From positions 1 to 64,000 of the forward strand of contig JACQZR010000169.1 of the NCBI GenBank assembly GCA_016213775.1: a stretch of DNA of 64,000 nt. Direction: 5' to 3'. Made by a program: the position numbers and the translations under genes. Shown piece by piece: positions 4,054 to 7,186 of the stretch. The DNA comes from Acidobacteriota bacterium (GTDB taxonomy: Bacteria; Acidobacteriota; Terriglobia; Bryobacterales; Bryobacteraceae). Each line of letters begins with the position of its first letter. Positions within the stretch are counted from its first letter, which is position 1. The notes beneath the pieces were generated by a model. It searched no databases and was not told the DNA's origin. It saw nothing but the letters and a program-made list of their open reading frames with translations.

Positions 4054-5160
4054 TCAGTTCCCGGATCCAGCCTTACGCTGCAGATCCGCCGGCGCTCTCT
4101 GATTGTCGTGAGCCTCGTAACGCAACGTCCACTGCAGCGGGACTGTGGCCGGCGGAAAGCATTGGCGGTCGTCACAGGCCTGGTAGCGGAATGCGCCTCG
4201 CACGACGAGTTCGTTGCCGCCTCCAGCCAGGGCAGGCCGAACCTCGGATTGCTGGCCAATAGAAAGATCGCGACTGAGACGCATCTTGCCTTCATAGACG
4301 GGAACGGTCTCGCCGATGGCTGGCAGCTGCAAAGTGCGCGCCTTCGGGAAGGTGGCAGGGTGGACAGCCCAGGCCCGAGATGGCTCCACCGTCCACACGA
4401 TTGGCTTGTAGGTGGTTTGAACACCCGGCGCATACACGTGCATCCCAGGCTTCAGTTCGACTTCGATTGCCAGTTCGATTCGGCTTCCGGCCCTCACGAT
4501 CAAATCCGTTGCGGCGTATCGGAGCCTGAGGTGTGGAGTGACGACGTCGGTCCAGGAAACGCCCTCCGCCGTGCGAAAGCTCTTGGCCAGGATACTCGCG
4601 GCCGTGTAACGATCGCGGTGATCCTCTTCGAAATACTTCGCCGTCACCACGCCCTTCTCATCGATGATGAAAGTCCCTGGAAACGGGACACCGGACCATT
4701 CGTGGTCCTTGGGGAAGTTCTCGTTCAAGATGTCGAATGCGCGAATCACCCGAGAGGCGGAGTCCGCCAGCAGTGGGTAAGTTATCGACCGCCGTTTGGC
4801 GAAACCGGCCAGCAACGCTGAACTGTCATAGCTCAGAGCGGCCACTTTCAGGCCACGCTGCTCGAATTTCTTTTTCTCCTGCTCCAACTCGACCAGTTGG
4901 GTTTTGCAGAAGGGTCACCAATCCGCCGAGCGGATGAAGAGTAGGACAAGGCCTTTCGATCCGCGCAGGGATTCAAAGGTCTGCCTGCGGCCCATGTGGT
5001 CGGTGACATCAAAGGACGGAATCTTGCTGCCGATTGCGGGCCCCGTCTTCATGTTCTTGTCCAGATCCGGCAAGGGTCTCACGCGTGCCTCCTGGGCGCT
5101 GGCATGCCCCGCAACAAGCAGCAGGGAAGTCAATACGATCAAGTTTCGGGTGCGCATCAT
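4054..5160 (-). CDS. Selenocysteine-containing redoxin fused to a DsbD-alpha-like domain
   Basis: 368 aa if the in-frame TGA at 4915-4917 (codon 82) is read as Sec. Signal peptide at residues 1-22 (ends ASAQ). An AhpC/TSA-type thioredoxin fold follows, with the active site reading SADW-U-PFCKTQ, where family members have Cys (DWCPFC). The frame continues with clear homology: LKVAALSYDS, YPLLAD, GTFIIDEKG. Residues about 205-355 resemble the N-terminal domain of DsbD, with a YQACDDRQCFPP cysteine pair. It probably acts in the periplasm as a peroxidase or thiol-disulfide relay. Shine-Dalgarno GGAG precedes the ATG. It lies 15 nt downstream of the DUF3179 gene in the same operon. A conventional annotation would split it into an 81-aa and a 277-aa ORF. 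A nonsense pseudogene is the alternative, but the TGA falls exactly at the active-site Cys and a SECIS-like hairpin follows. Confidence 0.85.
4884..4900 (-). promoter_or_regulatory. SECIS-like hairpin of the seleno-redoxin gene
   Basis: On the transcribed strand, starting 14 nt after the TGA, there is a perfect 6-bp stem CCAACT/AGTTGG closing the loop GGTCG. The GGUC apex and its place 21 nt after the UGA closely match the Escherichia coli fdhF SECIS, where the GGUC loop begins about 19 nt after UGA. The sequence also encodes QLVEL, so part of the structure may be coincidental. Confidence 0.75.
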
Positions 5161-5175
5161 CCGGTTGTCTCCATT

Positions 5176-6285
5176 CTATTCTTGCAGGCGGGGAGAGGCG
5201 GGCGGTTCTCCCACAACCAAGGTATCTGGTTGGAAGGCCAGCCAGGCGAAAGCGAAGTAGACGCCATGTTCGACTGGGTTCAGAGAAGTCCCTTTCAGCG
5301 CTCCGTCGTATGCCTTGCCCGTGACATTCCATCCACTGCCGGTTTCCCGATCTTCGATTCTGCCCTTTTCACGGCGAAAGCGAATACTGCCTGAGGCGTT
5401 TTCCGCCGAGAACACGCCGATGGAGCCAACCGAACGGGACTGGGCCATCGTTGGGGCGTCTACCGGGCTCAGCCCGTCGGGAGTGTAGAACAGGACGAGT
5501 GGGCGGCCGTCCACCTTGTCCTCAATGACGCCCCGGCGCGCCAATTGCGAAACCGGGTAGGCGCGGTAGCCCTTGCCGTCCTTGAGAACCACCAGCTTCT
5601 CCATCGGGCGCAGCGATGTCGTGCGCGATGACCGGACCGGCATGATGGGGCCGTTGCCGAATTCGTATGCCCGGTAGGGGTTCCGTCCATAGTCGCGCTG
5701 AAAGCCCGTTTCACGGGTGAGGACAACGCCGCCAGGATAGGACTCCTTGAACTGATCGAAAGGAATCATCTGGGACGGGATGATTCTGAGCGTAGAGCCG
5801 GTGTGCGTTCCCACGATGCCTTCTCCCGTGATCTGCTGCCAAAGGGAATCAGTTTGCCGATCGTACATCACCATGTCACTGTTGCGAAGCATGCCCGAGA
5901 CGCCGAACTCAAGTGTGGCGCCGGCGACCCTGCGGTCGAAGACAATGGCGCTGTTGCAGAGCGGGCAATAGCTGACGAGAATTGGATTCTCGCCTGCCCG
6001 GTCGTTAACCAGTTCGTGCCACATGAGAATCTGCAAGGGGTAGGCGCGGGCTTTCCCGTCCACATGCACAGCGATCACCAACTCCTTGGGCGCCAGCCAG
6101 TCAATGACATTGGATGGAAGGAATCGCGGGTTGTCAATGGACCGGATCCCATCCTTCGGTGGCCCTCCACGCACGAGTTCATTCAAGTCAATCGACTTCC
6201 TGGACCGGTCGGTCTTCCAGTTCCCTTCGGCGAATTGGGCGTGCGCCGGAAGGGCCAGGAGCAGCGCCAGAGCTATGCTTTTCAT
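5176..6285 (-). CDS. DUF3179 domain-containing exported protein
   Basis: 369 aa with a signal peptide (residues 1-16, ending AHA). It carries the DUF3179 signature: ARAYPLQILMWHELVND, then SYCPLCNSAIVFDR with a CxxC pair, then GTLEFGVSG-like and DSLWQQITGEGIVG segments, and DYGRNPYR. The biochemical role of the family is not established. The conserved CPLC resembles a thiol redox or metal site. It sits in a minus-strand redox operon between the deiodinase-like redoxin (50 nt upstream) and the seleno-redoxin (15 nt downstream), so a role in periplasmic thiol chemistry is plausible by context only. Confidence 0.8.
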   Translation of the reverse strand: MKSIALALLLALPAHAQFAEGNWKTDRSRKSIDLNELVRGGPPKDGIRSIDNPRFLPSNVIDWLAPKELVIAVHVDGKARAYPLQILMWHELVNDRAGENPILVSYCPLCNSAIVFDRRVAGATLEFGVSGMLRNSDMVMYDRQTDSLWQQITGEGIVGTHTGSTLRIIPSQMIPFDQFKESYPGGVVLTRETGFQRDYGRNPYRAYEFGNGPIMPVRSSRTTSLRPMEKLVVLKDGKGYRAYPVSQLARRGVIEDKVDGRPLVLFYTPDGLSPVDAPTMAQSRSVGSIGVFSAENASGSIRFRREKGRIEDRETGSGWNVTGKAYDGALKGTSLNPVEHGVYFAFAWLAFQPDTLVVGEPPASPRLQE

Positions 6286-6334: not shown

Positions 6335-7186
6335 TCATTTTCCGGCAAGGAACGTGGCGCCCAAGGCCGCGAATCCGGCCGTCAGCGACAGTAACAGGAC
6401 CATGGCGTACAAACCGCGTTTCTCGCGCGGTAAGAAGAACAGCAGATCGGAGACAATCGTCATCAGGGCCATCGGCAGAGCCATTTTCCAAAAGTCGAGG
6501 CGGGCGCCGCTCCCTGCAGCCGATAGGACCGTGGTCGTGTAGCCGGCCGATTTGAGGATTGCCTGGAAGGTGTTTGTGACGGTCAGAGCACGGAGACTTT
6601 CACCCGCCGTGATCGCGGCCAGCGCCGCACCGATGGCAGCGGTTTCGTTCGCCCACTGAGCCCGGAAGAGAATCGTTCGGGACGGGGAGATGAGGTAGGC
6701 GCTGTTCGGCCGCCCCCCGAGGCTGCGATGGAAAGTTCCGTCGATGTCGTCGACGGCCACTTCGAAGGGCAGTTGATAGAAGCGTTGGAGCGCGATTGCG
6801 TGCTGCAACTTCCGATCCGACGTCTTCGGCTGTGGGATGAAGGCGCCCGGATGCGCCTCTCTCACCTGCACCATTACGAACCGCACGTGAGCGCCGAAGC
6901 GGGCGTGCAAGGTCTTGAGGCCGTCCAGCCCGCTTACCATCACAGGACATGTTCTTGAACCGAACACGAGCAAGACCGGCCTCCGCTGAGCCGGCAGGTC
7001 ACCGCTTCTCAGCCAACCGCCGTCCGTGGTTTGCAGTTCGAACGGTCCAACCTGGTCGCGGGGCCCAGGCTCACCATCCCGGATGTACATGTCTCGAAGT
7101 ACATCCAGGATTCCCGGGTGGTCAAACCGGTAGCTCGATTGCGCCGACGAAACGGCCGGCGGTACCGGAGTCGTTGAAGGACTCAT
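6335..7186 (-). CDS. Deiodinase-like redoxin with C-terminal membrane segments
   Basis: 283 aa. Residues about 45-200 form a redoxin domain resembling the bacterial relatives of iodothyronine deiodinases: LLVFGSRTCPVMVSGLDGLKTL, then FVMVQVREAHPGAF with the conserved E-A-H. The position that is Sec in animal deiodinases is Cys here (RTCP). Two hydrophobic stretches follow near the C-terminus (about residues 230-280), suggesting a membrane anchor. No N-terminal signal peptide is visible. It is the middle gene of the minus-strand redox operon. Activity (peroxidase or reductase) is unknown. Confidence 0.7.
   Translation of the reverse strand: MSPSTTPVPPAVSSAQSSYRFDHPGILDVLRDMYIRDGEPGPRDQVGPFELQTTDGGWLRSGDLPAQRRPVLLVFGSRTCPVMVSGLDGLKTLHARFGAHVRFVMVQVREAHPGAFIPQPKTSDRKLQHAIALQRFYQLPFEVAVDDIDGTFHRSLGGRPNSAYLISPSRTILFRAQWANETAAIGAALAAITAGESLRALTVTNTFQAILKSAGYTTTVLSAAGSGARLDFWKMALPMALMTIVSDLLFFLPREKRGLYAMVLLLSLTAGFAALGATFLAGK

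Follow-up and report, generated by a model that had tools for sequence, protein, structure and literature searches.

A predicted selenoprotein of Acidobacteriota that joins a UxxC redoxin domain to a DsbD-alpha-like domain

The predicted selenoprotein gene and its neighbourhood

The stretch of DNA analysed here (the window; 64,000 nt of a contig from an Acidobacteriota genome) carries on its reverse strand a gene with an in-frame TGA codon. When this TGA is read as selenocysteine (Sec, U), positions 4057-5160 form a single open frame of 368 residues with a second TGA at its end. The features of the locus are listed below, all on the reverse strand.

4054..5160 (-): selenoprotein gene, with ATG at 5160, in-frame TGA (Sec82) and stop TGA at 4054-4056; 368 aa; from the frame and relatives
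5095..5160 (-): signal-peptide-like leader, residues about 1-22, ending ...LLLVAGHASA before QE; read by eye from the sequence
4639..5034 (-): AhpC-TSA/Redoxin domain, residues 43-174, with UxxC at 82-85 and invariant Pro161; from Pfam, alignments, a PDB alignment and the model
4915-4917 (-): TGA codon read as selenocysteine 82, context DW-TGA-PFC; from the frame and relatives
4876..4912 (-): bSECIS-type hairpin, apical stem-loop 4884-4900, loop GGUCG 4890-4894; from folding and comparison
4906..4908 (-): Cys85 of UxxC, present in 60/60 sequences of alignment A2
4144..4497 (-): DsbD-alpha (DsbD_N, PF11412) domain, residues 222-339; from Pfam, the domain model, Foldseek and VIA-align
4159..4176 (-): second redox pair, Cys329/Cys334 (CDDRQC, Cx4C), each 60/60 in alignment A2

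The TGA stands at x of the redox motif D-W-x-P-F-C, its first redox residue, and gives D-W-U-P-F-C with Sec; the frame continues beyond it, just as a sequence-only reading of this DNA had proposed. A plain ORF list without recoding gives an 81-aa and a 277-aa ORF, and gene callers that halt at the TGA would cut the selenoprotein into these two pieces. Both parts of the architecture proposed in that reading, a UxxC redoxin and a DsbD-alpha-like domain, scored above the Pfam gathering thresholds in the 368-aa protein (AhpC-TSA, E 1.8e-28; DsbD_N, E 1.2e-7, 32.2 bits vs gathering 25), and no Pfam match to the transmembrane beta or the gamma domain of DsbD was found within the 368 aa. The leader reads MMRTRNLIVLTSLLLVAGHASA. 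The periplasmic location suggested earlier holds up as far as an export-type leader is concerned: in a hydropathy test, which is not a signal-peptide predictor, a hydrophobic 11-residue stretch was present before the redoxin domain in 96 of the 107 members of a pool of relatives (see below), against 4/107 for an internal control segment.

At 5176-6285 (-), ending 15 nt ahead of the selenoprotein ATG, lies a gene for a DUF3179 protein (PF11376, 331 bits) with a CPLC motif; DUF3179 is itself among the selenoprotein families listed in a recent review (PMC13188914). Among the 79 loci surveyed, one besides the window's has a DUF3179 neighbour. The second gene upstream, at 6335-7186 (-), encodes a deiodinase-like protein (PF00837, 30.6 bits) with the sequence FGSRTCPV and a hydrophobic C-terminus, and the Cys of this motif sits where deiodinases have Sec. 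The neighbour survey covered 77 loci from the species-genome scan described below, the paralogue L061 of the same genome and the window gene, with crude ORF picking; it revealed no conserved neighbour that would hint at a substrate or electron donor, since at most 6 of the 79 loci share any neighbour cluster.

A bSECIS-type hairpin follows the UGA

Downstream of the UGA the transcript is predicted to form a hairpin with a perfect 6 bp apical stem (CCAACU/AGUUGG), a 5-nt loop (GGUCG) and, beneath an internal loop, a 7-bp lower stem. The GGUC loop and perfect stem reported earlier were found again, while the distance of 21 nt given with them is that to the loop (20 nt when measured), the apical stem beginning already 14 nt after the UGA. 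The folding energy of a 51-nt piece is -16.0 kcal/mol (z -2.30; 3/200 shuffles do equally well), and longer pieces of 86 nt and 141 nt were unexceptional against shuffles (z -0.88 and -0.87). An Rfam scan of the window gave no family at gathering score. Published criteria for bacterial SECIS elements are a loop of 3-9 nt, a stem of 4-16 bp, a G in the first two loop positions, a distance of 16-37 nt from the UGA and an MFE of at most -7.5 (PMC13188914); the hairpin, with its 5 nt loop, 6 bp stem, GGUCG sequence, 20 nt distance and -16.0 kcal/mol, falls within all of these.

The stem is conserved in Sec-containing relatives beyond what the encoded protein requires, in line with the earlier identification of a SECIS element. 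In a set of 38 distinct Sec sequences to which the window gene belongs, Watson-Crick pairing holds at 225 of the 228 stem positions, whereas 2000 synonymous-codon shuffles of the same sequences gave 158.5 +/- 5.7 such positions (maximum 178); complete 6-bp stems occur in 35 of the 38, against a shuffle mean of 3.1 and a maximum of 10. The underlying coding sequence, Q-L-V-E-L, yields a 6-bp stem with particular synonymous codons only, and the Gln and Leu codons covary over 42 Sec loci, with CAA+TTG found 21 times, CAG+CTG 20 times, and one exception. In a wider pool of relatives, six pairs were formed in 68 and five in 14 of 82 distinct Sec sequences, all of which (82/82) have GU in the loop, while among Cys forms just 1/21 has six pairs and 6/21 have the loop GU. 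This comparison indicates that the hairpin is under selection, being kept in Sec copies and mostly lost in Cys copies. One Cys form (L160, G352:C2) from a genome without selB retains all six pairs, and its nearest neighbour in the tree (L163) is a Sec form; its hairpin is possibly a relic SECIS left after a recent loss of Sec.

Selenocysteine machinery of the host genome

The window's genome (10.96 Mb in 314 contigs, 98.5% complete) was searched for the genes required for Sec insertion, as had been advised in the sequence-only reading, and selA, selB, selD and tRNA-Sec were all found. The scores were 494 bits for selA (cut-off 268; exceeded in 1/14 control genomes), 380 bits for selB (cut-off 242; 2/14 controls) and 350 bits for selD (cut-off 125; 2/14 controls). 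The selD gene shows one in-frame TGA in the profile search; a SelD motif-pattern search gave no match. The tRNA-Sec scored 77.6 bits (gathering 47, a less specific cut-off that 5/14 controls pass), and ARAGORN called the same tRNA as tRNA-SeC with anticodon tca.

Sec and Cys forms among relatives

The first set consisted of the window's own genome and 60 relatives; every genome gave some match, many to the redoxin superfamily only. From these 61 genomes, 44 full-length loci with both domains were taken, including the window gene (L029), and the codon at position 82 is TGA in 42 and TGC in two of them. Far from all close relatives having Cys at this position, it is found in 2/44, and the proposed selenoprotein status is supported by the comparison. 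One of the Cys copies (L036) occurs in a genome that also carries a Sec copy (L059) and the other (L069) in a genome (G029) with selB absent above cut-off. Besides the window gene, its genome encodes another Sec copy, L061, and contains a stretch (G000:C49:76065-76307) that is 51% identical to residues 214-295 and lies in a 121-aa open frame, and which, judged by this similarity, is a partial further copy of the alpha-like domain alone.

A scan of 84,980 species genomes gave at least 478 relatives among at least 592 pattern matches. The best 80 of the at least 478 relatives were kept; they overlap with the first set, are labelled acidobacterial except for two loci (L074 and L082) labelled Acidimicrobiia, and carry 62 TGA and 16 Cys codons, with two unread (L129 and L151). 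A pool of 107 was then assembled with duplicates removed (near-copies remain), one TGA locus (L131) left out, and the window gene in every count; five of 20 extra fetched stretches (L165, L166, L167, L170 and L171) are not full-length and were excluded from the tree and from the hairpin and selB counts. The pool comprises 86 Sec and 21 Cys forms, the latter over-represented because they were fetched deliberately, and a tree of the 107 proteins (quick search, position 82 masked) implies at least 11 switches between Sec and Cys.

An alignment of 60 members (A2) shows U/C82, C85, C329, C334, D80, W81, P83, P161, H241, Y243 and others to be invariant, so that the Cys pair attributed earlier to the DsbD-alpha-like domain is present in 60/60. 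PF11412 was matched at an E value of at most 0.001 in 59 of 60 members. Some variation in architecture was seen. Three of the excluded stretches (L165, L167 and L170) are redoxins without the DsbD-alpha domain, with the motif YWUPWC or TWUPYC, an in-frame TGA and stem pairing in six of six positions, and L170 runs on, by eye, into a repeat-like region. Additional N-terminal regions are present in L138-L140, L068, L070 and L132, and a DUF5818 match was found in one of 60 members scanned.

When 396 genomes were drawn evenly from the phylum, 63 of them, counting the window's own, had a match with an E value of 1e-30 or lower. Of the 62 others, 50 were examined and 12 had partial matches only. These 50 encode a full-length protein, in a Sec form in 43 genomes (called from in-frame stops, seven of them also codon by codon) and as Cys only in the other seven (all seven read). 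A selB gene above cut-off is present in 41/43 Sec genomes vs 2/7 Cys-only genomes (Fisher p 1.9e-4). In the 61-genome set, 35 of 37 Sec genomes have selB and the single Cys-only genome lacks it; both sets combined give 76/80 vs 2/8 (p 1e-5, uncorrected for relatedness). The Sec/Cys state follows the presence or absence of selB. The exceptions are four Sec-form genomes without selB above cut-off, G003 (87% complete), G004 (79%), G336 (97%) and G376 (93%), and two Cys-only genomes with selB (G443 and G452). In G336 and G376 there is no selB match at E 1e-70 despite their Sec-form members, which could reflect either assembly gaps or a recent loss of selB. Overall, the window protein is very probably a real selenoprotein, and its architecture represents a mostly Sec-using family that is widespread in the Acidobacteriota genomes searched.

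Predicted fold and active-site class

The AlphaFold model of the full protein, built with 60 sequences, has a mean pLDDT of 93.9 and a pTM of 0.89. As the top 50 Foldseek matches of the full-length model were redoxin-type chains only, the C-terminal domain was modelled alone (mean pLDDT 95.5), and its ten best PDB matches were then all DsbD N-terminal domains (DsbD-alpha) or ScsB. Upon re-alignment with VIA-align, 11 DsbD/ScsB rows gave Z scores of 10.5-11.9, with the other listed rows at most 8.3. Sequence-only PDB searches with this domain found no DsbD relative, so the fold comparison was needed, and a BFVD search returned weak thioredoxin-fold matches and noise.

The redoxin domain fits ResA and Bcp about equally well. 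Peroxiredoxins carry a Thr/Ser three residues before the peroxidatic Cys and have an active-site Arg. In alignments to AhpE and Bcp, C85 of the window protein takes the place of the peroxidatic Cys, but the residue aligned to their Thr/Ser is U82 (Cys in Cys forms), and the position of their Arg is occupied by the invariant P161 (60/60). The motif given for the peroxiredoxin type of selenoprotein is PxxxTxxU (PMC13188914). On the other side, U82 aligns to the first Cys of the ResA CxxC in three ResA alignments, and P161 to the ResA Pro in the one alignment that reaches it, so that by alignment position both the CxxC-type site (as UxxC) and the conserved Pro of ResA/TlpA/CcmG-type oxidoreductases are present. 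Since the Thr/Ser position is U82 and the Arg position is an invariant Pro, as in ResA, a canonical peroxiredoxin was rejected and the domain is better described as a Prx-like thiol:disulfide oxidoreductase. No NCBIfam family scored above cut-off for the window protein: ResA (NF002854) reached 48.8 bits vs 170, the SelL-related redox protein (NF040769) 53.4 bits vs 120, and the peroxiredoxin families were far below their cut-offs.

Comparison with described proteins

A 2026 review (PMC13188914) includes in its table UxxC selenoproteins named 'Prx-like thiol:disulfide oxidoreductase' and 'Redoxin family protein'. They share with the window protein a Redoxin/AhpC-TSA domain and Sec as first residue of UxxC; by their description they are set apart, as the rows cited here name the redoxin domain alone and no DsbD-alpha. 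A 2008 study of the GOS data described Prx-like selenoproteins fused to other Cys-bearing domains (PMC2398784). One of them, Prx-like 3 joined to an unknown domain (Unknown_3), is likewise a UxxC Prx-like selenoprotein with a further Cys-bearing domain, but that domain has three conserved Cys including a CxxC, where the window protein has two invariant Cys as Cx4C; in the portion of that paper's text cited here (PMC2398784), DsbD-alpha is not among the Prx-like fusion partners. The TsoB rhodanese/DsbD fusion-like selenoprotein (NF045694) has, by its name, a DsbD-like part, with a rhodanese rather than a redoxin and a UxxxxU motif.

The window protein resembles ResA, TlpA and CcmG in its Trx fold, CxxC-type site, conserved Pro and export, and differs in having Sec for the first Cys, an extra C-terminal domain and a ResA score of 48.8 against the cut-off of 170. 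ResA, TlpA and CcmG have a reducing role outside the cytoplasm. With the alpha domain of DsbD and ScsB (PF11412; 1L6P, 1VRS, 1Z5Y, 6C29) it shares the fold (Z 10.5-11.9) and the Cys pair, but the window chain has no membrane domain, places this domain behind a Sec redoxin, and is 14-21% identical to the solved domains.

No redoxin/DsbD-alpha selenoprotein was named in the literature searched, mostly at title and abstract level, in which little was found on selenoproteins of Acidobacteriota; a 2006 survey gave four selenoproteins in three families for the phylum (PMC1794560). The earlier remark that no described protein of such architecture was known stands for the fusion, for which no description was found and which would be what is new here, and not for its components, as UxxC redoxin and Prx-like selenoproteins (PMC13188914) and Prx-like fusions (PMC2398784) were already known.

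Proposed function and alternatives

The protein is probably an exported, Sec-dependent thiol:disulfide oxidoreductase, acting as a reductase, with its own DsbD-alpha-type relay, where the direction of electron flow and the substrate are what we infer. The supported parts are a UGA probably recoded with the aid of a bSECIS-type hairpin in a host that has the Sec machinery, a predicted ResA-like Trx fold with UxxC, a modelled DsbD-alpha fold with an invariant Cys pair, and a putative export leader. DsbD hands electrons through its beta, gamma and alpha domains to exported proteins (PMC4460558). In the proposed pathway, electrons would cross the membrane by way of the cell's own DsbD, from cytoplasmic thioredoxin to beta and gamma; gamma would pass them to C329/C334 in the tethered alpha-type domain, from where they would reach U82-C85 in the redoxin domain, and this site would reduce a disulfide, sulfenic acid or peroxide outside the cytoplasm. 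Such a protein would unite in one chain a DsbD-alpha donor and a Trx-fold acceptor of the type that is usually a separate protein reduced by DsbD-alpha. With Sec, the last transfer would be fast and less prone to overoxidation. Transfer within the chain, raised as a possibility in the sequence-only reading, may occur between the two domains, and the electron direction could be the reverse. A narrower version, in which this Acidobacteriota family forms a self-contained selenium relay whose alpha-type domain takes electrons directly from DsbD-gamma and passes them within the chain to the Sec-containing Trx-fold site, is put forward tentatively, at a little under an even chance.

The partner proposed for this pathway is encoded in most of the 61 genomes. 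The window's own genome encodes, on a different contig from the selenoprotein gene, one DsbD_TM protein with DsbD_N (alpha), transmembrane and thioredoxin-like parts, and DsbD_TM was matched in 58 of the 61 genomes; the Sec-form genomes without a match among these are G051 (94% complete) and G054 (74%). Given the alpha domain of the native DsbD, a second one is not strictly needed, and the alpha-type and thioredoxin-like parts of that protein lend something to a reverse or regulatory arrangement, in which the redoxin domain is fed by the native alpha domain or from elsewhere and the C-terminal domain is an output, docking or chaperone module. The confident joint model would accommodate this, as it leaves the direction unfixed, but the published electron route through DsbD runs from beta over gamma to alpha and on to exported proteins (PMC4460558), and both Cys of the C-terminal domain are invariant (60/60); we regard this arrangement as improbable.

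A Sec peroxidase, with the redoxin domain reducing envelope peroxides and the alpha-type domain recycling it from DsbD, is unlikely but carries rather more weight. Peroxide chemistry suits Sec, AhpC-TSA is the best Pfam family, C85 falls on the peroxidatic Cys of AhpE and Bcp, and an envelope peroxiredoxin that the title of Cho et al. 2012 reportedly names would be a parallel; against it stand U82 and the invariant Pro at the peroxiredoxin Thr/Ser and Arg positions, together with the NCBIfam peroxiredoxin scores far below cut-off. That there is no selenoprotein at all, the TGA being a sequencing error, a pseudogene stop or a true stop, is very improbable. A TTG-started ORF after the TGA makes a second ORF formally possible, but a TGA at the same codon in 42/44 loci and in 86 of the 107 pooled rows, the selection on the hairpin, the full Sec machinery and a Sec/Cys state that tracks selB all speak against it, and a sequencing error or pseudogene was rejected on the retention of the TGA in relatives, the hairpin selection and the selB association.

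The family adds a Sec-dominated two-domain member to the selenoproteome of Acidobacteriota, one for which the window protein matches no NCBIfam model above cut-off. If the proposed relay is real, the meeting of DsbD-alpha with its exported partners would here take place within one covalent chain, giving the cell envelope a reducing branch of the DsbD pathway that is dedicated and resists overoxidation. As far as the literature searched shows, the protein would then also be the first covalent fusion of such a donor and acceptor to contain selenocysteine. The repeated switching between Sec and Cys in step with selB provides natural matched pairs for learning what Sec buys in a cell-envelope reductase.
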